NCBI GenBank assembly: GCA_024763055.1
Contig: JANTGH010000022.1
Location: 1-34,323, forward strand
DNA: 34,323 bases
From: Desulfobulbaceae bacterium
GTDB taxonomy: Bacteria > Desulfobacterota > Desulfobulbia > Desulfobulbales > Desulfobulbaceae
Direction: 5' to 3'
The notes under the pieces are model-generated. The model made no database searches. It saw nothing but the letters and a program-made list of their open reading frames with translations, and was not told where the DNA came from. Made by a program: the position numbers and the translations under genes. This document shows positions 5,248 through 31,039 of this stretch, in pieces; within the stretch, counting starts at the first letter, position 1; each line of letters opens with the position of its first letter.

Positions 5248-5340
5248 ATGGTCTTCTCAGGGGATGACGGTAAAAACGCCTTTTATACATCCATTCCCCT
5301 GTTGTTAGTTTTTTTTATTTTCAGAAACCACACGGACCAA

Positions 5341-12800: not shown

Positions 12801-15800
12801 TCGTGCTGGATGAACCGGATCTGACCATTGACAAAATTGCCAACCCTGCCTCAGGTATTGACGCAGGTGATACTGTCACCTTTACAGTAACGGTAGAAAA
12901 CACGGGAAACTCCTCTGCTTTTGACACCATTATCAAGGATACCTTACCCGATGGTTTTGATCCGTCGGCAGTGACCTTTACCGTGACCCAGGGAGCAAAT
13001 ACCCTTGTTGCCGGAACTGATTTCAACTGGACAGGTGGTGGTATTGACGGCGATATCAATACAACCGGTGATAATTTCTTTGCAGATCCCGGTACCGATG
13101 GCATTTATGGTACAGCTGATGATGGAAATGATGGCGGCATCGAACTGATAGACGGTACAAACGGCCAGCTTGACCCCAGTGAAACCGTCGTCATCACCTA
13201 CACCCTGACCGCCGCAAATGCTATCGGACCCAACCAGACTCTCACCAACACGGCAACAATAACCAACTTTGCCGGGGCGGAAGGGGCAACTGATCACACC
13301 AGCCAGGATATTTCCGATAATGCCGTCGTCCAGGCAACCAATGTCACTGTGGACAAAAGTATTGCCGATACCAGCCAACCCGACAGCGTCACCAGTGGCA
13401 GCAACGTCACCATAGGCGAGACAGTCACCTATTCTGTGACGATCACCCTGCCGGAAGGTTCGGCAACAAATGTTAGATTTGCTGATGCTATGGATCTAAA
13501 CAGCGGGCTGGAAATTATTTCCCTTGATTCTTTAACAGATTCATCCGGTGGCGACATTCTGTCAAGTCTTGATGGTGGCAACACCACTATTGACGATACC
13601 TTTTTAGCCAATCATGGTTCCATTGCCGGAGACAATCTTTCTTTTTCCATTGATTTTGGTAACCTTGAAAATCAAAACCGTGACAATGCGACAACAGAAA
13701 CAATAACCCTGACCTATACCGCCCTGGTTCGCAACATCTCCCATAATCAAAGCCAGACAGACCTGAACAACACGGCCCGGTGGAACTGGACGGATGGTAA
13801 CGGTACCGACCAATCGGCCAATGATACCGAAACCGTTACCATTGTTGAACCCGACCTGCAGGTAACCAAGACCGCGCCCGCTGGTCTGACGCCCGATGCC
13901 GGGGATACCTTTACCTACACTCTGGTCGTTGGACATGATGGCAGCACAAGCACTTCCGACGCTTTTGACGCGGTTTTAAGCGACCCTATTTTAGCCGGAT
14001 TGACTTATGCCGGAAATCTAACTTCCACCGGTGCAGCCACTGCGAGTCTCGCCTATGATGCAGGAACAAACTCCATTAACGCAACCTGGGACATACTGGC
14101 CCAGGGAACAACCACAACTATAACCTTTGACGTAACCGTGGATGATCCGATCCAGGCCGGCACCGACTTGACAAATACAGCCGGTATTTCCTGGACAAGC
14201 CTGCCGGATGGAGATCCCGGCACAAATGATGTCAACGAACGCACTGGGGACGGTGGTATAAACGATTACACTGCCACCGATACTCTGACCTTGACAGTTG
14301 CCGGAACAATCGACAAACTGGATCCTGTTCCAGCCACCTATACTATCGGCGATGAAGTAACCTATGATATCGTTGTTTCCCTTCCTGAAGGAACGACCGA
14401 TAATCTGGTAGTCACCGATGCCCTGCCTGCGGGAATGGAGTATATAAATTCTCAGGTGGTCCAGGTGGTATCAGGCAATACTTTCAATGGAACGGTTACG
14501 ACAACACCGACTGTTAACGACACAGCGGGTGACGGTAATGACATTACCTGGTCTTTTGGCAATATCACAGTAAACACAGATAACAATACGGCGAACAACA
14601 GCTTTATCGTTCGGGTAACCGCCCTGGTCACCGATATTCCCGGCAATCATGATGATCCGGACGCAGGAGGTCCTGCCCTGGCAGCATCTCTTGTCAATGA
14701 AGCGTCCATGACCTATGATGATCCCGATGGCGGAACTATCTTCACTGATGATCCAACAGATCCTGTAGTTACGGTTATTGAACCCTGGATTGAGACTACA
14801 AAAGATGTAAGGCCGACAACACATGTCGAAGCCGGAGATGTGCTGACCTATACGGTCAACCTGCAAAACGGCGGCAATGCCACAGCTTATGAGGTCAACT
14901 TCAATGATACTCTGGCCCCTGGCACCACATTTGGCTCAGTGCAGACGGCGGAAATAGGGGGGGCAGGCGTTTCTCTTGGAACCACATCCACATCGGGAAG
15001 TGTGATCACTTTTTCAGACGACACCTGGGACCTTGACCCCGGCCAGGTACTGACCCTGACCTACACTGTCAACGTTACCTCGGCCGCCCTGGTGGACGGT
15101 ACGCACACCAATACCGTTGATGCCGATTGGTCAAGCCAGAATGGTACGGACTCCAACGAGCGCGTTTATGATGAGAATGACGGCATCGATTCACCAGTAG
15201 ATGGCGGCGCCAATGGTGACAGAGATGTCGATACCGCTGTCTTTGCCATGGATCCGGTCACCATCGCCAAGAGTGACGGCGGCGTGACCGAGGCAACCAT
15301 CGGCGACACCATCACCTACACCCTGACGATAAACTCTCCCCAGGGCACCATTGATAACTTTGCGGTGGAAGATGTGCTGTCTCAGGGGTTGATATTTAAT
15401 GATGACGCGGTGATCAGCACAGCCAGCGGTTCGTTTTCAACTGAAAATTCTCAAGCACCAACCTTCACCCTTAATGACGGATCTGCAGATGTGACCATCA
15501 CCTGGGACCTCGGCGATACGGTTGTCAGCACCGACGACCCGATACTTATTACCTATACGGCAACAGTAGCCAATGTAAACAGTAATTTCTTAGGTGAAGG
15601 TCTTGGCAATACGGCATCCATTGAATACGACAACGCCCAGGGCGGGCATGAAACTCCAGCTCCGGTGACGGATGGTTTGACTGTGGCTGAACCACAGATC
15701 ACCACAGATAAAACGGTTGTCGATTCCGCAGACACCGGCACCGACGCCTCACCCGGCGAGACCCTGACCTATACCGCCCGATTTACCAATACCGGCGATT

Positions 15801-18800
15801 CCACGGCCTATGAAGTCACGGTTGATGATATCCTGCCGGTAGGCGTAGATTTTGACCCCTCTTCAGCTATAACATTGGTTGGAACTGGGATTCTTAATGC
15901 CGTTGATATCAATGCCAGCTATGATGCCAATGCCCAGACAATTAATTTTACCAACTCAGAGGATGGATGGGATCTTTTAGCAGGTGGCTGGTTTGAGATC
16001 CATTACACAGTCACCGTGATGTCGGCAGGGTTTACAGCAGGCAGTTACACCAACACCGTTGATGCCGACTGGTCCAGCCAGGACGGCACTGATCCCAACG
16101 AACGGGTGTATGATGATTCAGGGAACTCCCCTGTTGACGGTACTCAAGATGAAAATAATGCTGCTTTTAATGTAGTCGCTACTGCCTCCTTGGGCGACAC
16201 GGTCTTTTTTGATGCTGCAGGAGACGGCGGCGCGTTTGATGCTGCTTCCGGAGATGTCGGTATCAGCGGTGTGGATGTTACCATAAGCGCTGACGTTGAT
16301 GGTGACGGTACCCCCGAATTTACACAGACGGTGCGTACCGATGCCGACGGCAATTATCTCTTCACCAACCTCGCTGCCTTTGATAATTATGTCATTTCAG
16401 TTGATCCGGCCACCAGCGGCGGTGCCAATCCCACAGACCTGACCGCATCCGGCTACCACCAGACCTATGATCTGGATGAGGGGACGGTTGCCCTGGACAA
16501 CACAGCAACCAGTATCAGCCTGAGCGCCGGACAAAACCGCACAGATATAGATTTCGGTTATACCGGTCAAAATTCTGTTGGTGATACGGTTTGGTTTGAT
16601 GTGAATGGCAATGGTGGGCAGGATACCGGTGAAGACGGCATCGGTGGTCTGACGGTTACCCTGACCGCAGATATTGACGGTGATAGTGTGGATGAATACA
16701 CAACCACCACAACTACTGATGAAAATGGCCATTACAGTTTTGACCACCTGCCGGCCGGTGACTATGATATAACCGTAACACCGTCTGACGGTTCCACTCC
16801 CACCTATGACCAGGACAGCGGCACTGGATCGCCCGATAACACAACACCCTTTACCCTGGCGGCGGATCAGGATCGTGACGATATCGACTTCGGTATCCAG
16901 GGCACCGGTTCGATCGGCGATTATGTCTGGTATGATGCCAATGCCGACACTAATTCACAAAATGACGGACCCAATGCCGGTCTGGCTGGAGTGACGGTCA
17001 CCCTGTCCGGCGATATCGACGGTGACGGCACCATCGATTATACCACCTCAACAACCACCGCTGCCGACGGTAGTTATCTCTTTGACCACCTGCTTGGCGG
17101 TACCTATACCATAACCGTTGATGACTCTACCCTGCCGGGCGGTTCCTCCAACTGGTCGCAAACTTTTGACCGTGATGAAGGAACGAACCCGCCTGCACTG
17201 GATAACACGGCAACCGACATTGTTCTGGCTCCAGGTCAGAACCGGGATGACGTGGACTTTGGATACACCGGCACCGGTTCCCTTGGCGATACGGTCTGGT
17301 ATGATGCCAACGGCAACGGCGTCCAGGAGGGGACTGAGCTTGGGCTGGCCGGGGTCACTGTCACCATTTCCGCTGACGTGGATGGTGATGGCACAGCTGA
17401 ATACACTCATACCGCCATTACTGATGCCAACGGCAACTATCTTTTTGATCACCTGCCAGCGGCCGACTACACCATTTCTGTCGATACCAATACATTACCA
17501 GCCGGCGCCACGCCGACCTATGATCTGGACAGCGCCACCAGCTCACCGGACTCTACAACCCTCTATACTCTGGCCACCGGTGAACACACCGACCGGGTCG
17601 ATTTCGGCTACACAGGAACCGGCTCTATCGGTGATACGGTCTGGAACGACATTAATGGCGACGGCGTTCAGGATACCAGTGAAAACGGCTTTGGTGGTGT
17701 GACGGTTACCCTGACCGGTGACTTTGACCATGACGGCCAGGCCGATGATACCCTGACCACGACAACGGACGCCGACGGTCATTACTCATTTGACAACCTC
17801 TTTCTTGGCGCATACATGGTGGCCGTTGATCCAGCCACCCTGCCGGCAGGCAACAGCCAGACCCATGATCTTGATGACCCGCATTCCACAACACCAACGA
17901 CTCCCAATACGGCGGCAGTTACTCTGGATGCAGCCAATCCGATCAACAATGATGTGGATTTCGGCTATAACTCCAAGTCCACCATCGGTGATACCATCTG
18001 GTATGATGCCGATAACGACGGCGTTCAGGATCCGGGTGAGCCGGGGTTAGCCGGTGTGACCGTCACCCTGACCGGGGACGTGGATGGTGACGGCAGCCAG
18101 GACACGGTTATCGCTACCACTGATGCCGATGGGCATTATCTCTTTGATCAGCTGCAGGCCGGCGACTATACAATTACAGTGTCCGACCTTCCTGCTGGTA
18201 TGGCCCAGACCGCTGATCCGGATGGAACCAATGATAATACCACCACCCTGACCCTTGGTGGCGGTGAGACCAACCTGGATCAGGATTTCGGCTATACCGG
18301 CACCGGAACCATCGGAGATACCATCTGGAACGATGGCGATGGCGACGGCTCACAGAATAACGGCGAGTCCGGGCTGGCCGGGGTCACCGTCACCCTGAGG
18401 GCTGATCTCAACAACGATGGAATTCTTGACACGGTGACCACAACCACGGATGCAAACGGCAACTATCATTTTGATAACCTGCCTGCCGACGACTACACCA
18501 TCACCGTTGATCCCGCCACCCTTCCGCCGGGCATGAACCAGACCGCTGATCCGGACGGAGGCAATGACAACACCGCAGATGTTACCCTGGCGGCCGGTGA
18601 AACCAACAACGATCAGGATTTCGGCTACCAGCAGACCGGCACCATCGGAGATACCATCTGGTATGATGCCGACGGTGACGGCATTCAGGATCCCGGCGAG
18701 TTAGGCCTGAACGGGGTTACCGTCACTCTGACCGACGGGAGCGGCAACACCGTTGCTACGACAACAACCGCAAGTGACGGCAAGTATCTCTTTGATAATC

Positions 18801-20923
18801 TCACGGCGGGTGACTACACCATCACCCTGACCGGTCTGCCGAACGGCATGACCCAGACCGCAGATCCCGATGGCGGCAATGATAATTCCGCGCAGGTCAC
18901 CATCGGCGGCTCCAGTCCGCTGGTCGACCTGGACCAGGATTTCGGCTATACCGGCACCGGCTCCATCGGCGATACCATCTGGAATGATGCCGACGGCAAT
19001 AGCGCCCAGAATAACGGCGAAACCGGTCTTGCCGGAGTGACCGTCACCCTGAGCGGGGATTTCAACGGCGACGGCGTACCGGACACGGTGACCACCACCA
19101 CCGATGCCAATGGCCAATATCATTTTGAGCGTCTACCGGAAGGCCAATATACCATTACCGTTGACCCGGCCACCCTGCCGCCGGGCATGCAGCAGACCGC
19201 TGACCCGGATGGAGGTAACGACAATACCGCCGACGTCACCCTGCTCGCCGGTGAAACCAATAACGATCAGGATTTCGGCTACCAGCAGTCCGGCACCATC
19301 GGTGATACCATCTGGTATGATGCCGACGGCGACGGAGTCCAGGATCCCGGCGAGCTTGGACTGGCCAATGTCCAGGTCACCCTGGTCGGCGATCTTGACG
19401 GCGACGGCCAGGCCGATGACACTCTGACTACGGTAACCGACGCAAACGGCCATTACCTCTTTGACAAACTGCCCGCAGGAAGCTATGCCATTACCGTTGA
19501 CCCGGCCACCCTGCCCGGTGGCATGGAAGAGACCCATGACCTGGATGGGACAGGGTCAGCCAATACCGCCCAGGTGACCATCGGCGACCATGAGGCCAAT
19601 CTGGATGTTGATTTTGGTTACAAGGGCACCGGTTCCATTGGCGACACCATCTGGTATGACGTGGATAATGACGGCGTCCAGGACCCGGGAGAGGTCGGAA
19701 TTCCAGGAGTCACCGTCACCATTACCGGTGACTTTGACAACGACGGTCAGGCCGATGACAGCATGACCGTCACCACCGGCCCGGACGGAACATACCTGTT
19801 TCCCAACCTGCCGGCCGGTGAGTATGACATCACCATTGATCCGACCACCCTGCCCGGCGGTATGCAGCCTGCCGGCGACCCCGATGGTACCCTGGACAAT
19901 ACCACCCATCTGAGCCTGAACGCCGGTGAGGTCAATCTTGACCAGGATTTCGGTTATACCGGTACCGGCTCCATTGGCGACCAACTCTGGAATGACCGGA
20001 ACGGCAACGGCATTCTTGATCCCGGCGAAGCACCGCTCCCCGGTGTGGAGGTCTGTATAGGCGTGGATCTTGACGGTGACGGCACTCCTGATTTCCGGGC
20101 AACCACGACCACCGGCGCCGACGGCACCTATCTCTTTGACAACCTGCCCGCAGGCGCGCACACGGTCTGCGTCAATCCGGCAACGCTTCCCCCGGGCATC
20201 AGGCCCAGCTTTGATCCGGACGGCACCAATGACAACGCAACCGTTGTCAACCTCGGAGCTGGTGAAAATAATGCAGACATTGATTTTGCCTATGTTTTTC
20301 CGCCGAAACCAGTGCCTCCGGTAACACCGGTTGTACCGCCTGCCCCTGTGCCGCCGGCCCCCGTGCCACCGACTCCCGGGCCCGGTTTTGCCAGTGACCC
20401 GCTGCTGCCTTATCAGCAGTTTGGTGACAAAGAAATCGAAGATATTTTCCTGTATCCATTTGAAGAAATTCCCTGGCAGATACCTGTCCTGCCGGTAACC
20501 CCCATCTACACCGGACACGCGGAGCCGGGAACTACCCTGGAATTTATTCTGTACGACGTAATGGGCAACCAGATCGGCCAGCAGTCCATCATGGCCGATA
20601 CCGCAGGCAACTGGCTGGCCAGTTTTCCCGATACCATCATGTATGACCTGCCCCACCATATGGCAATCACCCAGAACCTATCCTCGTACAATGTAAGTTC
20701 CGCAGGATTCTTTAACATGCGGACCTATTTCAGTCCCAACTTCAGCAGCATGGTCTTTTCCAGCACTGAACTGGATATAGATACAATCTTTGCCTATCTA
20801 CCTTCCACGATACTCAATTCCATGCACGCCGGGAATATGTCGATCTTCAATATCCAATGGAATGACTTTAATGAATATGAATTCTTTGCTCCATCAACAC
20901 AACCGGCTAAGACCGGTCACTGA
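9818..20923 (+). CDS. Giant (3701 aa) LEPR-XLL-like/DUF11/SdrD B-like repeat protein, probable surface adhesin
   Basis: Single uninterrupted ORF. N-terminus MKKKIKRHLLLEQLEDRIFLSA; DUF11-type modules (e.g. EPDLTIDKIANPASGIDAGDTVTFTVTVENTGNSSAFDTIIKDTLPDGF); 12 SdrD B-like modules (GSIGDTIWYDxDxDGVQDPGExGLxGVTVTLxGDxDGDG...YLFDNLPAGDYTITV); Pro-rich linker; unique C-terminal domain. Confidence 0.93.
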   Translation: MKKKIKRHLLLEQLEDRIFLSASPLAAVGPADHVAESEPVDLHAHDTLVPATETQHTAASDSGHVTPAGQEQPKAAETSESTNSANNMGAEHGNQSKPDDAEAIDNDHDNQADAQTVAGSVQQADQAAVSSETHGTQATDTGTADNADQAVGGVDTTIQTDSDTSAGIATDQVRDGQNADHESTTAAGENTPLSDAADPTTDHVNPDGTDTINTTDLADAGTDRADSEAADNTANNEVALADAADAVATDDQAIDPMIGEDFTFTTTFDNTTGSDVFGPYIDLLLDGGQDGSDAATDDGISFVSATYLNADVESTIIDITQNEVDNGITHPWATDNTGAPLIVHDIDGQTFHVGDQFVSLRMPFGSFTPDQPAAEVQVTAHMGVNADVDVNLGVHTTTGAMYGHDALDNPASDSPLRGAANGLAQETVHYKPEVITYRKDIIVPNVGADCQEQHAGTDDIRHFADDGSQIFEQNHQEIPTGPNFPATYVATIDVADGQEVTNLNLTEHLPDNIVYTGNVTVQVGGVAVAHTINLTGSDLVISLDNSVTGTANGDDVVITYDFYVPDQTTTGTDILNPATGDDGHIINDGEVGYSWQPNDGNDPNVVDATIDPEVNADGHFSDNPNVDDISHAQSIAIQKDHALDNDAGHAGYTPGDRVRFTLDFEISDYFGFGNIVIDDLLADGMDLLAAADGFAPTITIAERGTDIVTNHELTIGSELVTGTNGTNDETLHFDISQIIGGDGVLDGGYTDGHTDGATRGTITYWAEIQQNYVSPEGGGEANVDQGDLLTGGVTIEGDIYDYQANALTANSEADESCDSIDIITGSVDKDIYAVTNSTGTTYNPGDNPHLSPGDTVTYRIHYAMPFSSTEDFKLTDYLPLPVFDVSAYSWSNTADATIYDGTTTPAAGHWGYTTNDSYHNLDTPDTVSIGAGNTIIFDYGEYHDGGDTNAEIEIVFTVTVSDEPFADGMFLTNQVRATEQGTPLADNNTDAIVQIVLDEPDLTIDKIANPASGIDAGDTVTFTVTVENTGNSSAFDTIIKDTLPDGFDPSAVTFTVTQGANTLVAGTDFNWTGGGIDGDINTTGDNFFADPGTDGIYGTADDGNDGGIELIDGTNGQLDPSETVVITYTLTAANAIGPNQTLTNTATITNFAGAEGATDHTSQDISDNAVVQATNVTVDKSIADTSQPDSVTSGSNVTIGETVTYSVTITLPEGSATNVRFADAMDLNSGLEIISLDSLTDSSGGDILSSLDGGNTTIDDTFLANHGSIAGDNLSFSIDFGNLENQNRDNATTETITLTYTALVRNISHNQSQTDLNNTARWNWTDGNGTDQSANDTETVTIVEPDLQVTKTAPAGLTPDAGDTFTYTLVVGHDGSTSTSDAFDAVLSDPILAGLTYAGNLTSTGAATASLAYDAGTNSINATWDILAQGTTTTITFDVTVDDPIQAGTDLTNTAGISWTSLPDGDPGTNDVNERTGDGGINDYTATDTLTLTVAGTIDKLDPVPATYTIGDEVTYDIVVSLPEGTTDNLVVTDALPAGMEYINSQVVQVVSGNTFNGTVTTTPTVNDTAGDGNDITWSFGNITVNTDNNTANNSFIVRVTALVTDIPGNHDDPDAGGPALAASLVNEASMTYDDPDGGTIFTDDPTDPVVTVIEPWIETTKDVRPTTHVEAGDVLTYTVNLQNGGNATAYEVNFNDTLAPGTTFGSVQTAEIGGAGVSLGTTSTSGSVITFSDDTWDLDPGQVLTLTYTVNVTSAALVDGTHTNTVDADWSSQNGTDSNERVYDENDGIDSPVDGGANGDRDVDTAVFAMDPVTIAKSDGGVTEATIGDTITYTLTINSPQGTIDNFAVEDVLSQGLIFNDDAVISTASGSFSTENSQAPTFTLNDGSADVTITWDLGDTVVSTDDPILITYTATVANVNSNFLGEGLGNTASIEYDNAQGGHETPAPVTDGLTVAEPQITTDKTVVDSADTGTDASPGETLTYTARFTNTGDSTAYEVTVDDILPVGVDFDPSSAITLVGTGILNAVDINASYDANAQTINFTNSEDGWDLLAGGWFEIHYTVTVMSAGFTAGSYTNTVDADWSSQDGTDPNERVYDDSGNSPVDGTQDENNAAFNVVATASLGDTVFFDAAGDGGAFDAASGDVGISGVDVTISADVDGDGTPEFTQTVRTDADGNYLFTNLAAFDNYVISVDPATSGGANPTDLTASGYHQTYDLDEGTVALDNTATSISLSAGQNRTDIDFGYTGQNSVGDTVWFDVNGNGGQDTGEDGIGGLTVTLTADIDGDSVDEYTTTTTTDENGHYSFDHLPAGDYDITVTPSDGSTPTYDQDSGTGSPDNTTPFTLAADQDRDDIDFGIQGTGSIGDYVWYDANADTNSQNDGPNAGLAGVTVTLSGDIDGDGTIDYTTSTTTAADGSYLFDHLLGGTYTITVDDSTLPGGSSNWSQTFDRDEGTNPPALDNTATDIVLAPGQNRDDVDFGYTGTGSLGDTVWYDANGNGVQEGTELGLAGVTVTISADVDGDGTAEYTHTAITDANGNYLFDHLPAADYTISVDTNTLPAGATPTYDLDSATSSPDSTTLYTLATGEHTDRVDFGYTGTGSIGDTVWNDINGDGVQDTSENGFGGVTVTLTGDFDHDGQADDTLTTTTDADGHYSFDNLFLGAYMVAVDPATLPAGNSQTHDLDDPHSTTPTTPNTAAVTLDAANPINNDVDFGYNSKSTIGDTIWYDADNDGVQDPGEPGLAGVTVTLTGDVDGDGSQDTVIATTDADGHYLFDQLQAGDYTITVSDLPAGMAQTADPDGTNDNTTTLTLGGGETNLDQDFGYTGTGTIGDTIWNDGDGDGSQNNGESGLAGVTVTLRADLNNDGILDTVTTTTDANGNYHFDNLPADDYTITVDPATLPPGMNQTADPDGGNDNTADVTLAAGETNNDQDFGYQQTGTIGDTIWYDADGDGIQDPGELGLNGVTVTLTDGSGNTVATTTTASDGKYLFDNLTAGDYTITLTGLPNGMTQTADPDGGNDNSAQVTIGGSSPLVDLDQDFGYTGTGSIGDTIWNDADGNSAQNNGETGLAGVTVTLSGDFNGDGVPDTVTTTTDANGQYHFERLPEGQYTITVDPATLPPGMQQTADPDGGNDNTADVTLLAGETNNDQDFGYQQSGTIGDTIWYDADGDGVQDPGELGLANVQVTLVGDLDGDGQADDTLTTVTDANGHYLFDKLPAGSYAITVDPATLPGGMEETHDLDGTGSANTAQVTIGDHEANLDVDFGYKGTGSIGDTIWYDVDNDGVQDPGEVGIPGVTVTITGDFDNDGQADDSMTVTTGPDGTYLFPNLPAGEYDITIDPTTLPGGMQPAGDPDGTLDNTTHLSLNAGEVNLDQDFGYTGTGSIGDQLWNDRNGNGILDPGEAPLPGVEVCIGVDLDGDGTPDFRATTTTGADGTYLFDNLPAGAHTVCVNPATLPPGIRPSFDPDGTNDNATVVNLGAGENNADIDFAYVFPPKPVPPVTPVVPPAPVPPAPVPPTPGPGFASDPLLPYQQFGDKEIEDIFLYPFEEIPWQIPVLPVTPIYTGHAEPGTTLEFILYDVMGNQIGQQSIMADTAGNWLASFPDTIMYDLPHHMAITQNLSSYNVSSAGFFNMRTYFSPNFSSMVFSSTELDIDTIFAYLPSTILNSMHAGNMSIFNIQWNDFNEYEFFAPSTQPAKTGH
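12812..16180 (+). repeat. Array of seven DUF11-type modules within the giant protein, alternating A/B types
   Basis: Module starts about 12812, 13341, 13846, 14301, 14779, 15250, 15689. A types begin EPxx...K; B types carry TIGDxVTYxxxxxLPEGT-like text. Confidence 0.75.
16185..20299 (+). repeat. Array of 12 SdrD B-like modules within the giant protein
   Basis: Twelve occurrences of [SG][LVTI]GD-x-[VIL][FW] module starts, each ending in a D[FV]D/DQDFGY-type strand. Confidence 0.9.
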
Positions 20924-20947: not shown

Positions 20948-22765
20948 ATGAAGAAAAATCTTGGAATACTTGCCTTGACCGCTTTAGGGAGCCTGACGGT
21001 TGTATCACCCGTACTGGCTGATAATGATCAGCCCACGGATTATGAAGTGGCCGTTCAGGCAACCGATGAGAACACTCTTGACTATGAACACATAAAAGAA
21101 AGATTGTTTAAACGATATGTGCCCCTCGTTGAGCGTATGGAGCAGGGTGAGAAAGGATATACTTCCATTTTCTCCGCTTCCTCAGGAGACCCGACCACGA
21201 ACTCTGGAGCTATTCCTGAGAAGTTCACTCCCTGGTGGCAAGCCAAAGTCAATAAAAAAATCAACACCAAGGTGACAAATATCTCCACCGATGTTACTTC
21301 GCTTTTTACCCGGGCCTTGAAACACTCTTCACAGATTCAGGTATTCAGTGATCTGCCGCTCATTCGAGAAACGACTATCCAGGAGGCCGAAGGGCCGTAT
21401 GACTTCAGACTGTTTGCCGAAGGCCGTCTAAGTGATCTCGACGAACCGGTTGGCGATGACCTGAAGACCGGTGGCCCCCTTCGTTATGAGGAAACCTCAA
21501 AAAATCTTGAATACGGAATCCGGAAAAAATTTATCACCGGCACCGAAGTCGAATTAAAACAGAACATCGGTGATATAGATACCAACTCAACGTTTTTCAA
21601 CCCGGAAGATCAGGCCCGCACTGGTACATACCTGACCATCAAACAGCCGCTTCTCAAACGGTTCGGTATTGTCTACAATCGTTCTCCTATTGACCTGGCC
21701 ACCATTGATCACTCCATTGCCGGAGAAGAGCTGCGGCGAAATGTGGAAAGTCATCTGCTTGAGGTCAGCCGTGCTTACTGGGGCCTGTATCTCGAGCGTT
21801 CCCTGTTACTGCAGAAGAAACAGCTTGCCGAGAAAAGTATGAAAATCTTTGAAAAAATGCGGCAGCGTACTTCTGTGGATGTACCTCCCAGCCTGCTGGC
21901 CCGAGCTAAATCATTGGTCAACGCCCATAAACTGGCCGCAATGCAGGCGGAATTTGCCATGCTCAATGCCCAGTCACGAATCCGTGCTCTCGTTAATGAT
22001 CCTGAGCTTACAGGCCAATCCGCCCTTGAGTTAACTACCAGTCAGCTGCCTTCCCACAAGCCCTTTAACGTCAGCTTCGATAATGCCCTCAAGACAACCC
22101 TTGAAAACCGGCCCGAAGTCGCCCAATCCATGAAGCATATCCAATCCGCCTACCTGCGTCTGCAACGCTCTGAAAATGAACTTCGCCCGGACCTGGATCT
22201 CTTCTTCCAGACCTATGTCAAAGGGCTGGAGGGTGATTATGAGTACGGCAACGCTTATTCCAATCAATTTGATGAGGGCGGTCCCAGTTATGTCGGCGGC
22301 CTGCGTTTTGAGTATCCGCTGGGCAACAACGGCGCCGAGGCCCGAAACCTGCGGAAGAAAATTGAAATTCGTCAGCTCCTGCACCAGTTGGATACCACGG
22401 TACAGAATGTTCTGCTTGAAGCGCAGGTTTCCTATCGTGAGCTTGAAAAAAACTATCGTTCCATGGTACAAAGCTACCAGATCATGCTCTCCGACAATGA
22501 AGAGGTCAAAGCCCTGCTGTCGCGGGTTGATTACCTGTTGGCCAACCATGACCCCTATGGAGACGTGTTGTACCGGTTGATGGATGCCGATGAACGGTTG
22601 TCTGATTCCGAAGAGCTGTTTGCAAAAAGTGAACTAACCTATAACTATTCCCTCTATAACCTGTATCGGGCCATGGGTATTCTGGTCTCCAATCAGCAGA
22701 TAGTCTTTGAAAAAGATACCAACGATCAGGATGAACTTCCGGTTATGCATGTTAAAAGGCAATAG
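20948..22765 (+). CDS. TolC-family outer-membrane efflux protein
   Basis: Signal peptide MKKNLGILALTALGSLTVVSPVLA; TolC-like helical repeats (LLEVSRAYWGLYLERSLLLQKKQLAEKSMKIFEKM; VQNVLLEAQVSYRELEKNYRSM; RLMDADERLSDSEELFAKSELTYNYSLYNLYRAMG); strong Shine-Dalgarno (gagagaaggaag). Confidence 0.88.
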   Translation: MKKNLGILALTALGSLTVVSPVLADNDQPTDYEVAVQATDENTLDYEHIKERLFKRYVPLVERMEQGEKGYTSIFSASSGDPTTNSGAIPEKFTPWWQAKVNKKINTKVTNISTDVTSLFTRALKHSSQIQVFSDLPLIRETTIQEAEGPYDFRLFAEGRLSDLDEPVGDDLKTGGPLRYEETSKNLEYGIRKKFITGTEVELKQNIGDIDTNSTFFNPEDQARTGTYLTIKQPLLKRFGIVYNRSPIDLATIDHSIAGEELRRNVESHLLEVSRAYWGLYLERSLLLQKKQLAEKSMKIFEKMRQRTSVDVPPSLLARAKSLVNAHKLAAMQAEFAMLNAQSRIRALVNDPELTGQSALELTTSQLPSHKPFNVSFDNALKTTLENRPEVAQSMKHIQSAYLRLQRSENELRPDLDLFFQTYVKGLEGDYEYGNAYSNQFDEGGPSYVGGLRFEYPLGNNGAEARNLRKKIEIRQLLHQLDTTVQNVLLEAQVSYRELEKNYRSMVQSYQIMLSDNEEVKALLSRVDYLLANHDPYGDVLYRLMDADERLSDSEELFAKSELTYNYSLYNLYRAMGILVSNQQIVFEKDTNDQDELPVMHVKRQ

Positions 22766-23666
22766 CCCCTCCCCTGCCCGCCTGCTTCTCAGGCGGGCAG
22801 GAATTCACTCGTTATCGCTCGCTGTTTTCTTCATTTCAGCTTCGGCTTTTTCCGCTTTTGCGGCTACTTTTGAGACCTTTCTTGAACCGGCGCAGATTGT
22901 TGACATTTCAACGCCTTATCGTGACCGTATTGATGTCATCCATGTCCGGGAAAATGATCACGTCCACAAGGGAACCCTGCTGGCCGAACTTGCCACAGGG
23001 GTGCTTGAAAGTCGACTGGCCCAGGCAAGGGAAACCGCGAAAAACCACGGAGAAATTGACGCGGCCAGAGCCATGGTGTCGATGCGGAAAAACCGGGTTC
23101 AAATGCTTGTTGAGTTGAAAAAATCCGGCAATGCCAGGCCTCAGGAACTGAGTACCGCAAAAACCGAACTGACCATGGCAAAAGCGGATTTACAAAGCGC
23201 CCTTGATCGGCAACGGCTAAAGAAAAGTGAAGCCAAGGTCATTGAAGCGCAGCTGGAAGAAAAAAAGCTGAAAAGTCCCATAGACGGCGTTGTAGTCACC
23301 ATCTATAAACAACAGGCCGAGCTGATCGGTGGTGCTGATACCCAGCCATTGTTGACCATTGCCCAGCTTGATCCGTTGCATGCAGTTTTTCATCTACCGC
23401 CCGAGGCGGCGCACAGTCTGAAAAATAAAAAACAAATCTCCCTCGTAGTGGCGGGACAACAGACAACCGGGAACATAGACTTTATCTCGCCGATTATTGA
23501 CGCGCAGAGCGGCACTATCACCGCGCGCATTATCCTGACCAATACAAATCATACCCTGGACAGCGGCTCCCGCTGCACTCTTGTCCTTAATGATACTCCA
23601 GGAGAACCCTCCCATGACCGAACAGGAACAGAAAACCCAACAGCAGATCAAGGTCCGCTACAATGA
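22749..23666 (+). CDS. HlyD-family periplasmic adaptor
   Basis: Signal peptide; barrel-sandwich/lipoyl pattern DVIHVRENDHVHKGTLLAEL...KLKSPIDGVVVTIYKQQAELI; coiled-coil hairpin. The supplied ORF starts with TTG at 22707; in-frame ATG at 22749 preferred. Confidence 0.87.
   Translation: MLKGNSPSPARLLLRRAGIHSLSLAVFFISASAFSAFAATFETFLEPAQIVDISTPYRDRIDVIHVRENDHVHKGTLLAELATGVLESRLAQARETAKNHGEIDAARAMVSMRKNRVQMLVELKKSGNARPQELSTAKTELTMAKADLQSALDRQRLKKSEAKVIEAQLEEKKLKSPIDGVVVTIYKQQAELIGGADTQPLLTIAQLDPLHAVFHLPPEAAHSLKNKKQISLVVAGQQTTGNIDFISPIIDAQSGTITARIILTNTNHTLDSGSRCTLVLNDTPGEPSHDRTGTENPTADQGPLQ
22773..22801. repeat. Perfect 12-bp stem-loop at the TolC/HlyD gene boundary
   Basis: CCTGCCCGCCTG-CTTCT-CAGGCGGGCAGG. 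Confidence 0.9.
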
Positions 23667-23919
23667 AACCTCGGCCCTTTTTGCCTCCCAGTTCATTGTC
23701 AACACCAGCGCCGAAGATGTGACGATCAACTTCTCCTCCGGCCCCTTAAGCGACCCGGCGACCGGAGAAACCATCCTGCCGGTCCATACCCGGATGGCCA
23801 TGACCCGGGAAGGGGCGCGGCGGCTGCATGCCGTGTTAACCAATGTCTTGGGCGACCCGGAAAACAAGGGTAAAATTCCCGCCAACGCCCAGGCAAAACT
23901 CCCGGACATCAAGCAATAG
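23614..23919 (+). CDS. DUF3467-like small protein
   Basis: QQIKVRYNETSALFASQFIVNTSAEDVTINFSSG...RMAMTREGARRLHAVLTNVL resembles DUF3467; ATG at 23614, overlapping the adaptor gene. Confidence 0.7.
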   Translation: MTEQEQKTQQQIKVRYNETSALFASQFIVNTSAEDVTINFSSGPLSDPATGETILPVHTRMAMTREGARRLHAVLTNVLGDPENKGKIPANAQAKLPDIKQ

Positions 23920-23924
23920 CAGCA

Positions 23925-25772
23925 GTGCGGCACACCCCGAACACCGAAGGGGAGACCTTTACGATCTCCGCGCCTGACCTGCGCCAACTGACAGCGCTCT
24001 TCAGCAGCTCAGCTTTTCAGCAGGCTGATCGCCGAACACTTCTGCAACAGTTCCTGCAACAGACTATTGCCCTGATCAATGCTGCCGGCGCAGTCTATTT
24101 TTCCCGGCAGGGGACAAATCTTACACCGGAGATGTCTCTGCTGGCCCGGCAGATGCAAAGCCGGGGTGACGCCCTAAATGATGAGCTGAAAAGCTGCGCC
24201 TTAAATGCGCTTTCCCGAGAAGAAGTCTGCTATAACAGGTTTGGCGGCAGTAGTTCCATGTACTGCATAAGCTGTCCCGTTCCTCTGAACAAAGGCTGTC
24301 TAACGGTACTTCTCGTCACCGACCACGGCTCGCTCTCCCCTTTTATTGTAACTCTGCAGCTGTTAGCGGCGCTGCTTGACCAGTATCTGTTGCAAGAGAA
24401 GACAACAATAAAGAGTAACGCAGATCCCTCGCTCTCTATTCAGTTCCTGCCAACCCTGAGTACTCTATTTTCACTGCCGCCCGGCAAGGAACGTATCCTG
24501 CATCTGAACCAATCGCTGAAACTTTTTACCGGCGCGGATCTTTCCGTGCTTGCCCGTGGAAAAAATGGAAAAAATATTCATATTTCCGCTCTTTCCGATG
24601 TGGCCTCCCTGGACCGACGAACACATCAGATTCGGCTGCTGCAGAAGGGGATCGATGAATGTGTTCTTCGTGGGGTTCCTCTCTGCTGGCCGGAAAGCGA
24701 TGACAAGTCAACCCAGGGCTCGCTGGTCCTTGAAGAAATAGGACGAAACACAGGCGGAGCCCAGGTGATGGCAATCCCGCTTGCCGCCGAAGGAAACGCC
24801 CCGCACGCTGTGCTCCTGTTGACTTGGAAGACACTCGCCGACAGGAGTCAAATACAACAGGCCCTGTCCGGATTTGCTCCGGTGCTCTCCGGTATCCTTC
24901 CCTGCCTTGACAAGGCAAAAGGAAAACAGGGTTCGGACCAAAAACAAATCAAACCCGGTGCGCATTGGACGCTTCAAAATAAGGTCACGACTGCCGTGGC
25001 CGCGTGCCTTGTCCTGCTGCTCTTGCTTCCTGTTCCCTATCGTCTGGCGGCAGAGGCAATTGTTCAGCCCAGGGTCACCCGATTTGTGGTGTCCCGTTAT
25101 GATGGTCTACTCATTGAGGCCAGGGTCCGTCCCGGTGACCGGGTTGAAAAAGGCGACATACTTGCGCGTCTTGACGGTCGGGAAACCGAGGTGAAACTGG
25201 CCTCCCTGCAGGCAGAGATGGACAAGGCAAAAAAATTGTTCGACCAGGCCACGGCATTGGGAAATACGCCTGCCGCCCAGGTCGCGCGCCTCGATATGCT
25301 CCGATATGAACAACAGCTCACCCGTCTCCGCGAACACCGGGACCATCTGACCCTTACAAGTCCGGTGACCGGCATGGTTCTGACCGGTGATCTGCAACGG
25401 GCGGAAGGCAGTCCGGTGAGCCGGGGCCAGACATTATTTGAAGTAGCCCCCCTTGCTCAGATGGAAGTCGAGGTCGCTATCGATGAACAGGATATAGCCC
25501 AGGTTCCAAACAATGCTGTAGTCACCATTCGTTTTGATGCGTATCAGGACCTGTCCTGGAAGAAAAAATTTGAGCGTATTGAACCCAGGGCTCAGATTCG
25601 AAACAATCAAAACGTGTTTGTCGGCATTCTCGAATTTGACAACCCGCAAGGCCGTCTTCATCCCGGAATGCGCGGAACAGCAAAAATCCATGCCGGCACA
25701 AGACTGTTAGGCTGGATCATCTTCCGCAAACCATGGCACACCCTGCTTCGCCTGTTTGACTCCCTGTTGTAA
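23925..25772 (+). CDS. GAF-like N-terminal region fused to a HlyD-type membrane-fusion adaptor
   Basis: Long N-terminal cytoplasmic-type region; TM TTAVAACLVLLLLLPVPYRL; HlyD lipoyl halves (LLIEARVRPGDRVEKGDILARLDGRETE ... LTSPVTGMVLTGDLQRAEGSPVSRGQTLFEVAPL) and GMRGTAKI end; GTG start 5 bp after the upstream stop. Confidence 0.82.
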   Translation: MRHTPNTEGETFTISAPDLRQLTALFSSSAFQQADRRTLLQQFLQQTIALINAAGAVYFSRQGTNLTPEMSLLARQMQSRGDALNDELKSCALNALSREEVCYNRFGGSSSMYCISCPVPLNKGCLTVLLVTDHGSLSPFIVTLQLLAALLDQYLLQEKTTIKSNADPSLSIQFLPTLSTLFSLPPGKERILHLNQSLKLFTGADLSVLARGKNGKNIHISALSDVASLDRRTHQIRLLQKGIDECVLRGVPLCWPESDDKSTQGSLVLEEIGRNTGGAQVMAIPLAAEGNAPHAVLLLTWKTLADRSQIQQALSGFAPVLSGILPCLDKAKGKQGSDQKQIKPGAHWTLQNKVTTAVAACLVLLLLLPVPYRLAAEAIVQPRVTRFVVSRYDGLLIEARVRPGDRVEKGDILARLDGRETEVKLASLQAEMDKAKKLFDQATALGNTPAAQVARLDMLRYEQQLTRLREHRDHLTLTSPVTGMVLTGDLQRAEGSPVSRGQTLFEVAPLAQMEVEVAIDEQDIAQVPNNAVVTIRFDAYQDLSWKKKFERIEPRAQIRNNQNVFVGILEFDNPQGRLHPGMRGTAKIHAGTRLLGWIIFRKPWHTLLRLFDSLL

Positions 25773-25777
25773 CGCCC

Positions 25778-27955
25778 ATGAATAACGCAGGATCAACCCA
25801 GATGCCTCGCCTTCGACCAGGACTTCGTTTTACCCCTGTTGGAGAGCATAATCAGGCCCATTACATTGTCGAAGATACCGCCCGCCATGTATATTACCGT
25901 ATCGGCCTGGAAGAATACCTGTTGCTTGCCCATCTAAACCGGTCCTCCTCCCTTGAAGAGCTCCTGCAAAAGGCTGCTGCCACCTCCGATGTGGCGTTAG
26001 CACCTGAGCAGGCGATGACAGTCCTGAAATGGGCTGCAGCAAAACAGTTGCTGCAGACCGATAGTCCCAAAACTCTCAACGCCCTGTTAGGTCAGGAAAA
26101 ACAGCTTCAGGCGATGCGTGCCTTAAATCGAATGAACCTGGTCTCTTTTAAGATACCTCTGGGCAATCCTGATCCGTTACTGCAGAAAATCTCCCCATGG
26201 CTCAGGCCGCTCACCGGTCCCTTCTTCGGTCTGCTCTGGATAGTTGCCGCCTTATTTGCCATGGGCACACTTTTTTCCCACTGGCAGGAATTTCATGCCG
26301 GCAGCACCGGTTTTTTTTCACCGACAAACCTCTTTCTTCTCTGGCTGATCTGGCTTGGCCTGAAAATTTTACACGAGCTGTTCCACGCCCTGGTCTGTTA
26401 CCGTTACGGCGGCAGGGTCCATGAGGCCGGTATACTTTTTATCCTTTTTATGCCGTTTACCTATGTCAATGCCACCTCTTCGTGGAAATTCCCCTCCCGC
26501 TGGCAACGTATCCATGTTGCCATAGCCGGTATGTTCATCGAGCTGGCCGTCGCCTGGACAGCCCTGATCATCTGGGCGAAAAACCCCGACACCACTGCCG
26601 GGCTCATTGCCCATCGCACCGTCATTGTTGCCGGAATCAGTTCACTGCTCTTCAACGCAAATCCCCTGATGCGTTTTGACGGCTATTACATCCTCTCCGA
26701 CCTGGTCGACATTCCCAATCTCTATCAACTGGGCCTGCAAAGCACGAAAGAACTCTGGGCCCGTCTGCTGTTAAACATCAAAGCACCCTCGGTTATCACC
26801 AGCGCTCAACAGGCACACTGGCTGTTTATCCGTATCTACGGCGTATTGGTCTTTCTCTGGCGGATTCTGATTTTTGCATCGCTTGGTTATATGGCCTCCA
26901 AACTTTTCGGCGGCCTGGGCACGCTTATCAGCCTGTTGGCTGTTCTGGTCTGGATATCCTCTCCAATACATGATTTCATCGCCCGCTTACCGGCATACAG
27001 GGAACAGAATCCACAGGTGCTCCGAAATCTGTTGCTGCGCACTTCCATCATGATATGCCTAAGTACGATTCTGTTGGCTACGGTGGGCTGGAAACGGTCG
27101 ATCCGGGCACCGGCAGTGGTGGAATATGAACAGCAATACCGGGTCAAGGCAGGGGCCGGTGGTTTTGTCAGTACAATTCTTGTTAAAGATGGCGACAGGA
27201 TATCGGCAGGACAAAAGCTGATGATCCTGGAAGATCCGGATCGTGTCGCTACACTGCATGTTGCTGAACTTGAGCTTCAACAGACACGGGTTAAAATCAG
27301 GATAGCCTACAACAGGGGACAATTGCCTGCAATGCAGATACTGCGGCAACAGGAGAAGGCATTAATCACAAAGCTCAAACAGCAGCAGGATGAATTCGCG
27401 GCGCTGACCGTTACGGCCCCCGGCAGTGGCACAGTCATTGCCGAGGGCCTTGACCAACTCATGGGAACCTATATGAAGAAGGGGAATGAGATTCTGTGGA
27501 TCGTCAACCCCGAACAAAAACAAATGGTTGCCAGTGTTGCTCAAGATGATATCGACCAGATGCGCGACCTGGTGGGAAAAAATGTTACCATTGACATGCG
27601 TGACAGCGGTCTTGGTCTTTTCACCGGCAGGGTAAAACGCATAACCCCGACAGCCTCAACGGAATTGACGCATCCCGGCCTTGCCGCCAAATACGGGGGG
27701 TCGATTGATGTTCTTCAAAAAACGGTCGGCAGGAAAGACAGCTCCATGCGGGAACAGATCCAGTTTGAATTTTTCGAACCTCGCTTTTCAATGGAAATCA
27801 CCGTGCCCGGAGAATTTGTCCGAAGGCTTTGGTCCGGCCAGCTCGCCTATGTTCTGGCCCGGGGTCCCCGCATCACTCTGCGTCGAAAAATCCATGATAT
27901 ATTTTCCACATGGGTCAGCAACAAGGACAGGGCGGCAGCGATTAAGACCAGATGA
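25778..27955 (+). CDS. PqqD-like / M50 (site-2-type) metalloprotease / HlyD lipoyl fusion membrane protein
   Basis: PqqD-like N-terminus (RPGLRFTPVGEHNQAHYIVEDTARHVYYRIGLEEYLLLAHLNRSSSLEELL); HExxH in KILHELFHALVCYRYGG; NANPLMRFDGYYILSDLVDIPNL third-ligand motif; lipoyl region VKAGAGGFVSTILVKDGDRISAGQKLMILEDP and APGSGTVIAEGLDQLMGTYMKKG. Confidence 0.88.
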   Translation: MNNAGSTQMPRLRPGLRFTPVGEHNQAHYIVEDTARHVYYRIGLEEYLLLAHLNRSSSLEELLQKAAATSDVALAPEQAMTVLKWAAAKQLLQTDSPKTLNALLGQEKQLQAMRALNRMNLVSFKIPLGNPDPLLQKISPWLRPLTGPFFGLLWIVAALFAMGTLFSHWQEFHAGSTGFFSPTNLFLLWLIWLGLKILHELFHALVCYRYGGRVHEAGILFILFMPFTYVNATSSWKFPSRWQRIHVAIAGMFIELAVAWTALIIWAKNPDTTAGLIAHRTVIVAGISSLLFNANPLMRFDGYYILSDLVDIPNLYQLGLQSTKELWARLLLNIKAPSVITSAQQAHWLFIRIYGVLVFLWRILIFASLGYMASKLFGGLGTLISLLAVLVWISSPIHDFIARLPAYREQNPQVLRNLLLRTSIMICLSTILLATVGWKRSIRAPAVVEYEQQYRVKAGAGGFVSTILVKDGDRISAGQKLMILEDPDRVATLHVAELELQQTRVKIRIAYNRGQLPAMQILRQQEKALITKLKQQQDEFAALTVTAPGSGTVIAEGLDQLMGTYMKKGNEILWIVNPEQKQMVASVAQDDIDQMRDLVGKNVTIDMRDSGLGLFTGRVKRITPTASTELTHPGLAAKYGGSIDVLQKTVGRKDSSMREQIQFEFFEPRFSMEITVPGEFVRRLWSGQLAYVLARGPRITLRRKIHDIFSTWVSNKDRAAAIKTR

Positions 27956-30435
27956 AACGAAAATTGCTTATAGTGGTGCTCGCGCTGCTCATTCTTGTGC
28001 CGACCCTCCTTTTTTTCCGGTTGCAGATCACCACTTTTATTCTTACCAGGGCCCTGATCCACGCCGGTCTAAGCAACATAGAACTTGAGCTTGCGGATCT
28101 GGGCAGCCGAAACATGCATTTAGGTCGGCTCACCTGCGTCCTGCCCGGTTCCGGTGGCAGCATTATTCTTCAAAACGGTGTTCTCGACTGGAACCGATCG
28201 CTCCTGCGTGACAAACAATTAAACACCATCAATATTGATTCTCTTGCTGTTGAGCTTCCCCGAAAAACAAACGCGACATCATCCAGAAAAATATCGATAC
28301 AACAGATAGTTGAAAACATTTCCTCCCAACTGCAAAAGCTTCCCTTCAAAGAACTGCATATTGCCCGGCTCATCATCAACGGCAAGGCTGCCGGTCCCAT
28401 TACCGGTCGAGAGCTCACCCTGGATCTGCACAAAAACGGCAAAAAGATTTTCGCCGGTCTGCTGCTGGTAAAGGAAAAGCTGCGCCTGGCCTTGGACGCT
28501 GCCGACCCAAACCGGTGGCGCTTAGGCGTTGTCGGCCCGATACAGGACGCGCCCTTTCTCAGCGCGGATTTTCATCTCAGTTCCGCGCGGCTTCAAGGGG
28601 AGATAACGGCTGAATTATCACGCCTGAAAACGCTTAATCCATTGCTGAAAACGCCGCTGCCAAAGCTTGCGGGCAAGTTATCAGCAACCGTTGCAGTCTC
28701 ACTGAACAAAAAGAACACGGCTGATATTGAGCTTCACCTGCAGCAACCGGTTTTCGCCGATTGGAGCGCCGCTTCCATCCGACTTGAACTGCATGGACTT
28801 CCGGGTTCCCCGGGACAGGTTCTCCTGGGGCAGCATTCAGGAATGCACATTGTAAACCTGCAAAAAGATACCCTTTCCATTGATGACTTGACCATTGACC
28901 TCGACGGCCGGCTCACCCGGACAAAAGACTTTCTTCAATATGTTTTTGCTGAACAATCAATGATCAGCACCCGGGGAATCAACAGCCCCAAACTGCAGGT
29001 CAGCTCCATCCGGCTGCCCGCAGCCATTGACGCAACAATTACCGGAAACAAAATAACGTTGAAGCTGCCCGCAAAGCAGCAATTTCTTCTCACTGATTTT
29101 CATACCAAAACGCTCTCAATACCAAAGGCACGTCTAACTCCCACACAAGACACAGACATCTCCCTGCTTATCAATAAAGATTTTCCCTGGACTATCGCTC
29201 CCGGACACTGGCAGTGCAACCTTACAGCAGTCCGACGGGACAACATGATACTTGAGCCCGCCCCTATTGACATTGATATGCAACGGCTCGCGGGCAGGGC
29301 GAAAGACTGGCGGATACAAACCAGCATCACCTGCTCTGAGAGTCATCTGAGTGACAAAAACAATGGGCTGACTGTTGAAAACATCTCTATGGAACTGAAA
29401 GGTGGTTTAGAGAAAATCGAAGGAACCGGTTCCTGGTCGCTGCATGGCATTCCCGGCGTTCTGGCCCTGAATTTTTCCCATAATCTGAACACCGGAAAAG
29501 GTAAGGCCGCAATCAACAGCAAGAATCCATTCACCCTGTCAAAGGAGTTGCCGTTGAGCGCAATCCTTGATCGGTGGACCCTGCCCGCCGACCTCACCGG
29601 CGGTCGTCTGCAGCTGCAAAGTACCATCCGCTGGCAGCCCGTGAAAATGAACCTGCAGGTAGAACTTACCGAGGGCGAAGGGCATTTCAAAACAACCCGT
29701 TTTTCAGGTCTTGCAACCCGTCAGAATATCCAGATCCTTCCCGCCATACAATCCCGAAAAACCGGCATTGTCACCATAGATAAAGTGAATGCCGAAATAC
29801 CCATGCAAAACTTCTCGACAATAATTCGCCTGCAACCCTCTTCTCACGGGCCTTTGCCTGAAATTATCCTTAAGGATACGCGGATATCACTCTTTGGCGG
29901 GACAATTTCCGATGATCTTCTCTCCGTAGATCTGCAGAAACCGGAAATTCAAAGCCGGGTAACACTCAACAACATTGATTTACCCGAACTTATCAATCTG
30001 CAGCAGGTCAAGGGACTCAAGGTTTCCGGAAAACTTCATGGCCGTCTTCCCTTTCGCATAGACAAGTCCGGGCTGCACATTGATAACGGCAGGTTGGAAA
30101 ATATGTCGCCTGGAGGAATTATCGAGTATAATCCGCCTGGCAATATCGGGCTGCAACAATCGCCGTTTTCAGAATACGTGCTTAAAGCGTTGGAAGAGTT
30201 CCATTTCGATCTTCTCTCGGCCACGGCCATGTATTCTCCTGATGGAAAATTACAGATGAACCTTCACCTTGAGGGAAAAAGCCCAAAACTTGAAACGAAT
30301 CGACCCGTGCATCTCAACATCAATACTGAACAGAATCTCCTTTCCCTCTTGGAAAGTCTTCGTTATAGTAAATCACTAACCGATGAAATCGATACGAAAG
30401 TTCAACAGCATTTCCAAAACAAGCCATCTCCATAA
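27952..30435 (+). CDS. ydbH: YdbH-family AsmA-like intermembrane protein
   Basis: N-terminal TM; YdbH-like C-terminus GKLHGRLPFRIDKSGLHIDNGRLENMSPGGIIEYNPP...ALEEFHFDLLSATAMYSPDGKLQMNLHLEGKSPKLETNRPVHLNINTEQNLLSLLESLRYS; ATGA overlap with upstream gene; followed by YnbE and YdbL homologues. Confidence 0.87.
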   Translation: MKRKLLIVVLALLILVPTLLFFRLQITTFILTRALIHAGLSNIELELADLGSRNMHLGRLTCVLPGSGGSIILQNGVLDWNRSLLRDKQLNTINIDSLAVELPRKTNATSSRKISIQQIVENISSQLQKLPFKELHIARLIINGKAAGPITGRELTLDLHKNGKKIFAGLLLVKEKLRLALDAADPNRWRLGVVGPIQDAPFLSADFHLSSARLQGEITAELSRLKTLNPLLKTPLPKLAGKLSATVAVSLNKKNTADIELHLQQPVFADWSAASIRLELHGLPGSPGQVLLGQHSGMHIVNLQKDTLSIDDLTIDLDGRLTRTKDFLQYVFAEQSMISTRGINSPKLQVSSIRLPAAIDATITGNKITLKLPAKQQFLLTDFHTKTLSIPKARLTPTQDTDISLLINKDFPWTIAPGHWQCNLTAVRRDNMILEPAPIDIDMQRLAGRAKDWRIQTSITCSESHLSDKNNGLTVENISMELKGGLEKIEGTGSWSLHGIPGVLALNFSHNLNTGKGKAAINSKNPFTLSKELPLSAILDRWTLPADLTGGRLQLQSTIRWQPVKMNLQVELTEGEGHFKTTRFSGLATRQNIQILPAIQSRKTGIVTIDKVNAEIPMQNFSTIIRLQPSSHGPLPEIILKDTRISLFGGTISDDLLSVDLQKPEIQSRVTLNNIDLPELINLQQVKGLKVSGKLHGRLPFRIDKSGLHIDNGRLENMSPGGIIEYNPPGNIGLQQSPFSEYVLKALEEFHFDLLSATAMYSPDGKLQMNLHLEGKSPKLETNRPVHLNINTEQNLLSLLESLRYSKSLTDEIDTKVQQHFQNKPSP

Positions 30436-30450
30436 CACCGGGAGAACCTT

Positions 30451-30639
30451 ATGAAAAGCATTCTATTCTTTTTCGTTCTATTTTCATTTTCCATAACCGC
30501 CTGCTCGCCAACCGTAAAAGTGGCGCCGCCTGATAAACCAATTACCATCAATCTCAATGTGAAAATTCAGCATGAAATACGAGTGAAGGTGGAAAAAGAA
30601 CTGGACGATGTACTCAGCGAAGACAGCGGACTTTTTTAA
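30451..30639 (+). CDS. ynbE: YnbE-family lipoprotein
   Basis: Lipobox ITACSP; TVKVAPPDKPITINLNVKIQHEIRVKVEKELDDVLSEDSGLF matches the YnbE pattern as I recognise it. Confidence 0.92.
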   Translation: MKSILFFFVLFSFSITACSPTVKVAPPDKPITINLNVKIQHEIRVKVEKELDDVLSEDSGLF

Positions 30640-30709
30640 TCACGCCGGAACGTGGCAAGGTAAGAATATTGGCAGTAAAAAATAAAACCTGTTTCCTCGA
30701 ATAGTTAAG

Positions 30710-31039
30710 GTGAATATCATGAAAAAAACGATCCTTTTTCTCCTAACAACGCTGTTTCTCTTCTGCCAGACCGGTTTTGCCCTGGACCTCGGAGCGGCCA
30801 AGGCCCAAGGCCTGGTGGGAGAAACCGTGACCGGCTATCTGGCGCCGGTCAAGGCAACACCGGAGGTACAAAAACTGGTCAACAGCATCAATGCAAAAAG
30901 AAAGGCCATGTATGCAAAGATCGCCAAACGCAATGGGACCAGCCTGCCAGCGGTTGAACAATTAGCCGGAAAAAAAGCCATTGAAAAAACCCCGCCGGGC
31001 CAATTTATCAACTTAGGCAAGGGCTGGCAGAAAAAATAA
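30710..31039 (+). CDS. ydbL: YdbL-family (DUF1318) protein
   Basis: Signal peptide; AKAQGLVGETVTGYLAPVKATPEVQKLVNSINAKRKAMYAKIAKRNGTSLPAVEQLAGKKAIEKTPPGQFI; adjacent to ynbE. MKKT start at 30719 is plausible. Confidence 0.92.
   Translation: MNIMKKTILFLLTTLFLFCQTGFALDLGAAKAQGLVGETVTGYLAPVKATPEVQKLVNSINAKRKAMYAKIAKRNGTSLPAVEQLAGKKAIEKTPPGQFINLGKGWQKK

Follow-up and report, generated by a model that had tools for sequence, protein, structure and literature searches.

Does a YdbH-YnbE-YdbL phospholipid bridge whose genes stand directly behind those of a giant-protein exporter serve that exporter, or does it merely share its operon? This question is raised by a stretch of 34,323 nucleotides from a Desulfobulbaceae bacterium (contig JANTGH010000022.1; hereafter the window), for which an earlier note had proposed that the bridge is dedicated to, or co-expressed with, giant-protein export. 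The conserved gene junction makes co-expression of the triad with the exporter a reasonable inference and probable, whereas dedication was not supported, since the two modules also occur apart. In the reading preferred here, to which a probability of roughly two thirds is assigned, the triad encodes a housekeeping phospholipid bridge that, in one branch of the Desulfobulbaceae, came to form the 3' end of an export operon for a giant surface protein of the LEPR-XLL/SdrD type, with which it is probably co-expressed.

Gene content of the locus

All genes described for the window lie on the forward strand. Its regulatory part, assigned by domain search, comprises an OmpR-type response regulator (4480..5247), a LysM/FecR/fn3 protein (5248..7032) and, upstream of the giant gene, a CHASE2 sensor histidine kinase (7047..9332). 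The giant gene itself (9818..20923) encodes an SdrD_B/Cna-B-like surface protein of 3701 amino acids with a LEPR-XLL N-terminus (PF17210; NF012209), which is the presumed cargo. Its start (9818-9910) carries the LEPR-XLL motif (LEQLEDRIFLSA; 17.3 bits for NF012209, cut-off 17) and no obvious signal peptide.

The exporter cassette begins with a TolC-like outer membrane channel (OEP; 20948..22765; PF02321, E=6.5e-17), followed by an HlyD-type periplasmic adaptor (22707..23666; HlyD_D23, E=2.8e-13; RND_mfp above cut-off), a small DUF3467 gene (23581..23919; PF11950, E=2.1e-6, above its cut-off) and a second HlyD adaptor (23925..25772; HlyD_D23, E=3e-19), whose N-terminal extension of about 380 residues gave no Pfam match. 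The DUF3467 reading frame fills a gap of 258 bp between the two HlyD genes, and the gap length is identical in the genomes G001, G004, G005, and G007. The last gene of the cassette encodes a fusion of an M50 metalloprotease with HlyD (25778..27955; Peptidase_M50 and HlyD_D23), found at 80 loci in several phyla; its M50 half (25778-27000) resembles the model of the daptide biosynthesis HExxH protease (146 bits, cut-off 300). No ABC, RND or MFS pump was recognised among the cluster genes scanned. Judging from its parts and their conservation, the cassette probably exports the giant protein.

The triad begins with a ydbH-like gene (27952..30435), encoding an AsmA-superfamily inter-membrane bridge protein of 827 amino acids that matches PF11739 (E=1.4e-70; 239.6 bits, cut-off 26.3) over residues 246-818, the C-terminal conserved part. 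Directly downstream, after 15 bp, lies a ynbE-like gene (30451..30639; PF13617, E=3.2e-19, 68.8 bits) for an outer-membrane lipoprotein of 62 amino acids with the lipobox ITAC and serine at position +2. It is followed by a ydbL-like open reading frame (30710-31039), which more likely starts at the ATG at 30719, giving a periplasmic protein (DUF1318) of 106 amino acids (30719..31039; PF07027, E=9.8e-29, 100.2 bits). The Pfam matches to all three families bear out the triad identified in the earlier note, including the YnbE and YdbL homologues behind ydbH, and its coordinates proved correct when the sequence was re-read.

An AlphaFold model of YdbH (19 sequences, mean pLDDT 86) predicts that a single membrane helix at the N-terminus leads into about 50 strands, which form an extended beta groove, and that a further helix stands at the C-terminus. 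The top PDB match of the model was LPD-3, a bridge-like complex for lipid transfer (E 1.5e-7), with a low TM-score of 0.21. Furthermore, YdbH changes in evolution much more rapidly than the products of the neighbouring operon genes: the proteins of the window and of G007 are 39% identical for YdbH, compared with 69% for M50-HlyD, 81% for YnbE and 86% for YdbL. Fast evolution of YdbH was also observed in the exporter-less genome G002 (43% identity to the window).

Conservation of the junction and separability of the modules

The stop codon TGA of the M50-HlyD gene (27953-27955) and the ATG of ydbH (27952) share the four letters ATGA (27952..27955) within 'ccagATGAaacg', confirming the -4 overlap that had been claimed for this position. 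A terminator between the two genes is ruled out, because they overlap and leave no space for one. A promoter and terminator scan of the operon yielded weak promoter-like matches inside it, at a frequency near background, so that ydbH could own a promoter. Overlaps of -4 are common in bacterial operons generally. They couple translation, and short spacings are 4.5-fold enriched among the subunits of complexes in E. coli (PMC10666635).

Across genomes, ATGA was found in 5/5 testable intact-exporter junctions of the window genus, namely in the window and in four further genomes (G001, G003, G005, and G007), the junctions of G004 and G006 being cut by contig ends and standing outside this count. 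Among the comparable genomes of these five, YdbH is 34-46% identical, and retention of the overlap despite this divergence argues that it is not due to chance. The sister genus g5 (G011, G023, and G031) showed the same gene order in 3/3 genomes. A junction unique to the window genome is thereby ruled out, and the refuting condition set in the earlier note does not apply. In g5, the spacing between M50-HlyD and ydbH amounts to 6, 12, and 95 bp, which indicates that the coupling is not universal. The co-directional overlap or short spacing by which an operon member is recognised was thus present in the window genus (ATGA in 5/5) and at 6-95 bp in g5.

Other members of the family showed looser arrangements. 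In G029, the triad adjoins the giant gene in divergent orientation with 685 bp between the reading frames and therefore cannot share the exporter transcript. In G017, M50-HlyD is followed by a different reading frame of 494 amino acids and ydbH lies on another contig; G079 carries the orthologous exporter and gave no YdbH match. A distant HlyD-HlyD-M50HlyD set (25% identical) stands divergent to a ydbH triad in G032 (L079:10566-17907), which belongs to another genus of the family, and the same distant set is unlinked to the triad in G014 of that genus.

The triad also persists where the exporter has disappeared. The genome G002, a member of the window genus, has lost the exporter and kept an intact ydbH (826 amino acids), ynbE, and ydbL, and a relic reading frame of 60 amino acids from the M50-HlyD C-terminus, comprising the last 47 homologous codons, is still linked to ydbH by ATGA. 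This loss is derived, since the YdbH tree, whose deep branches are weak and from which only the g1, g5, and g2 groupings were used, places G002 as sister to G003 with its intact exporter junction (support 100/99). Just upstream of the relic (L070:11757-12200) lies a nearly perfect direct repeat, which starts with TTTATCCGAAAAT.GCCCACGAAGTG and is possibly a deletion scar. In G021 (genus g2), genes for a response regulator, a FecR protein and a CHASE2 protein lead to an M50-HlyD relic of 134 amino acids (HMM E=2e-12) and then to an intact triad; in genus g2, a homologue of the CHASE2 kinase of the window adjoins the triad without an exporter. G008 and G036 have flanks similar to those of G021, with neither an exporter nor a recognised relic. 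The exporter was thus lost at least twice, in G002 and G021, with the triad undisturbed. In total, 28 of the 62 exporter-less family members (about half) carry the triad. The co-occurrence of exporter and ydbH in the family (Fisher test, p=0.013) ignores phylogeny and carries no weight here. Exporter and triad are separable in both directions.

The surroundings of the linked genes are less stable than their linkage. Sequenced flanks of relatives contain nothing that matches the genes following ydbL in the window (31151 on), and G031 lacks, upstream of its giant gene, the regulators that stand there in the window, while the block giant-OEP-HlyD-HlyD-M50HlyD-ydbH-ynbE-ydbL stays whole. These observations bear on the possibility that the neighbourhood was simply inherited by descent, ydbH being merely downstream without functional coupling. 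The restriction of the linkage to one branch of one family, the variable spacing and the two or more exporter losses that left the triad undisturbed are all consistent with such passive inheritance. However, an intact block amid changing sequenced neighbours argues against it in its pure form, the block having persisted while YdbH diverged down to about 30% identity and ATGA having been retained at each of the five intact junctions that could be tested in the genus. Passive inheritance is therefore considered unlikely, although it deserves to be taken seriously.

A tighter relationship than co-expression was also considered, in which YdbH of this Desulfobulbaceae branch has been recruited into a trans-envelope unit for export and surface assembly. 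It would contact M50-HlyD through co-translational assembly at the ATGA overlap and so couple phospholipid delivery to the outer membrane with insertion of the exporter channel. Such a contact is conceivable, since short overlaps are enriched among subunits of complexes (PMC10666635); as a whole, the proposal appears improbable.

Exporter distribution and the question of dedication

Exporter loci were searched by a contig scan with an alignment query, which detected 80 loci, 70 of them outside the family of the window; the OEP-HlyD-HlyD-M50HlyD set is kept in many of the 80. The cassette (20948-27955 in the window; loci L103-L182) occurs in Planctomycetes, in Gammaproteobacteria (relatives of Thiomargarita and Beggiatoa), in Verrucomicrobia and in an Elusimicrobia metagenome-assembled genome. 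Triad genes were found near 0/70 of the loci outside the family within the fetched flanks (up to 10 kb), at least 3 kb of downstream sequence having been fetched for 52 of the 70. YdbH was not detected in 31 of 42 sampled exporter genomes outside the family, which are mostly drafts and in which distant YdbH proteins may escape the profile. In the remaining 11 of the 42, it lies on a contig other than that of the exporter, as judged by contig numbers. Overall, the cassette has a much broader distribution than the triad, which usually does not accompany it.

Within the genome of the window (97% complete, 350 contigs), a genome-wide search recovered exactly one YdbH and one orthologous M50-HlyD, and the second, unlinked ydbH copy that the earlier note had suggested looking for was not found. 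A search with PF04357 gave no TamB match in this genome, and one other AsmA-type fragment was detected, at a contig edge. YdbH, YhdP, and TamB have been described to maintain outer-membrane lipid redundantly (PMC8593681; PMC11226057). The single ydbH, the missing TamB match and the one other AsmA-type fragment together suggest that the triad of the window likely carries a general lipid-bridge duty, and among bridges of this subtype it is probably the principal one of the genome, or the sole one.

These distributions weigh on the idea that the bridge is a dedicated part of the exporter, supplying lipid or remodelling the envelope for giant-protein export. The genera g1 and g5 show tight and conserved linkage, the two modules are also neighbours in G029 and (with the distant exporter type) in G032, and GspN, an AsmA-like protein serving the type II secretion system (T2SS; PMC12802150), sets a precedent; all this speaks in favour of the idea. 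On the other hand, the 70 outside-family loci (52 of them with 3 kb or more of downstream sequence) include none with a triad gene in its fetched flanks, YdbH went undetected in 31 of the 42 exporter genomes, G002 and G021 lost the exporter and kept the triad intact, and the ydbH of the window is the only copy in its genome. Furthermore, YdbH has diverged alike in the exporter-less G002 (43% identity to the window) and the exporter-bearing G007 (39%). Neither co-occurrence with the exporter across lineages nor joint loss with it was found, and the sequence gives no evidence of lipid being supplied to the exporter, as the earlier note had envisaged. A dedicated part is accordingly rated as improbable. 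A role like that of GspN, in which YdbH would shield the acyl chains of lipidated export cargo, is very unlikely. In its favour, GspN is structurally YdbH-like and required for T2SS surface lipoproteins (PMC12802150), and YdbH gave a weak match to the GspN model TIGR04411, well short of the cut-off (E=6e-4). However, no lipobox was found in residues 1-60 of the giant, FecR/LysM, and OEP proteins, and this role was rejected on that ground; YdbH also retains its own partners YnbE and YdbL.

For the preferred reading, that of a co-expressed housekeeping bridge, the following course is proposed. From its anchor in the inner membrane, YdbH would extend a hydrophobic groove to the lipoprotein YnbE in the outer membrane, and YdbL would assist in the periplasm. 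This triad would have become the tail of an operon encoding the giant protein, the TolC-like channel, HlyD, DUF3467, HlyD, and M50-HlyD, and we infer that it is co-transcribed with them. In the window genus, the ATGA overlap probably couples the translation of YdbH to that of M50-HlyD. The likely benefit would be co-regulation, with phospholipid delivered to the outer membrane when the giant surface layer and the trans-envelope channels are built.

Comparison with known systems

The locus bears on the question of what the individual AsmA-type lipid bridges do and why several of them are maintained in bacteria. Where one bridge is tied to an export operon and close relatives have naturally lost the exporter, comparison of genomes can help to show when this bridge is required. 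The locus also draws attention to the M50-HlyD exporter cassette, which is widespread and, in the window cluster, comes with no obvious energised pump. In the literature searched, no paper describing the linkage of triad and exporter or the M50-HlyD cassette was found, nor any experimental account of the latter.

Three known systems invite comparison. The ydbH-ynbE-ydbL genes of E. coli, whose YdbH-YnbE bridge has been described (PMC8593681; PMC11784454; PMC12977461), belong to the same three families in the same order, with YdbH and YnbE recognisable by Pfam and a lipobox in YnbE. However, the tight overlap in E. coli is that of ydbH with ynbE (PMC10666635), whereas in the window ydbH overlaps the upstream exporter gene; a further difference is that TamB was not found in the window genome (PF04357). 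GspN of the T2SS likewise has an AsmA-like beta groove, and its gene accompanies those of the secretion system that it serves (PMC12802150). It is, however, part of the T2SS operon and acts on lipoprotein cargo, while the window carries a full triad that is separable from the exporter and for which lipidated cargo was not detected. The cassettes with LEPR-XLL giant proteins and HlyD-M50 components in Planctomycetes, Gammaproteobacteria, and others share the OEP-HlyD-HlyD-M50HlyD set and the LEPR-XLL motif with the window, and differ in that 0/70 loci outside its family have the ydbH triad in the fetched flanks. The triad is thus already known and the exporter cassette is of a widespread kind, whereas their union at the operon level is a new, lineage-specific arrangement, for which co-regulation of envelope building is the simplest explanation.
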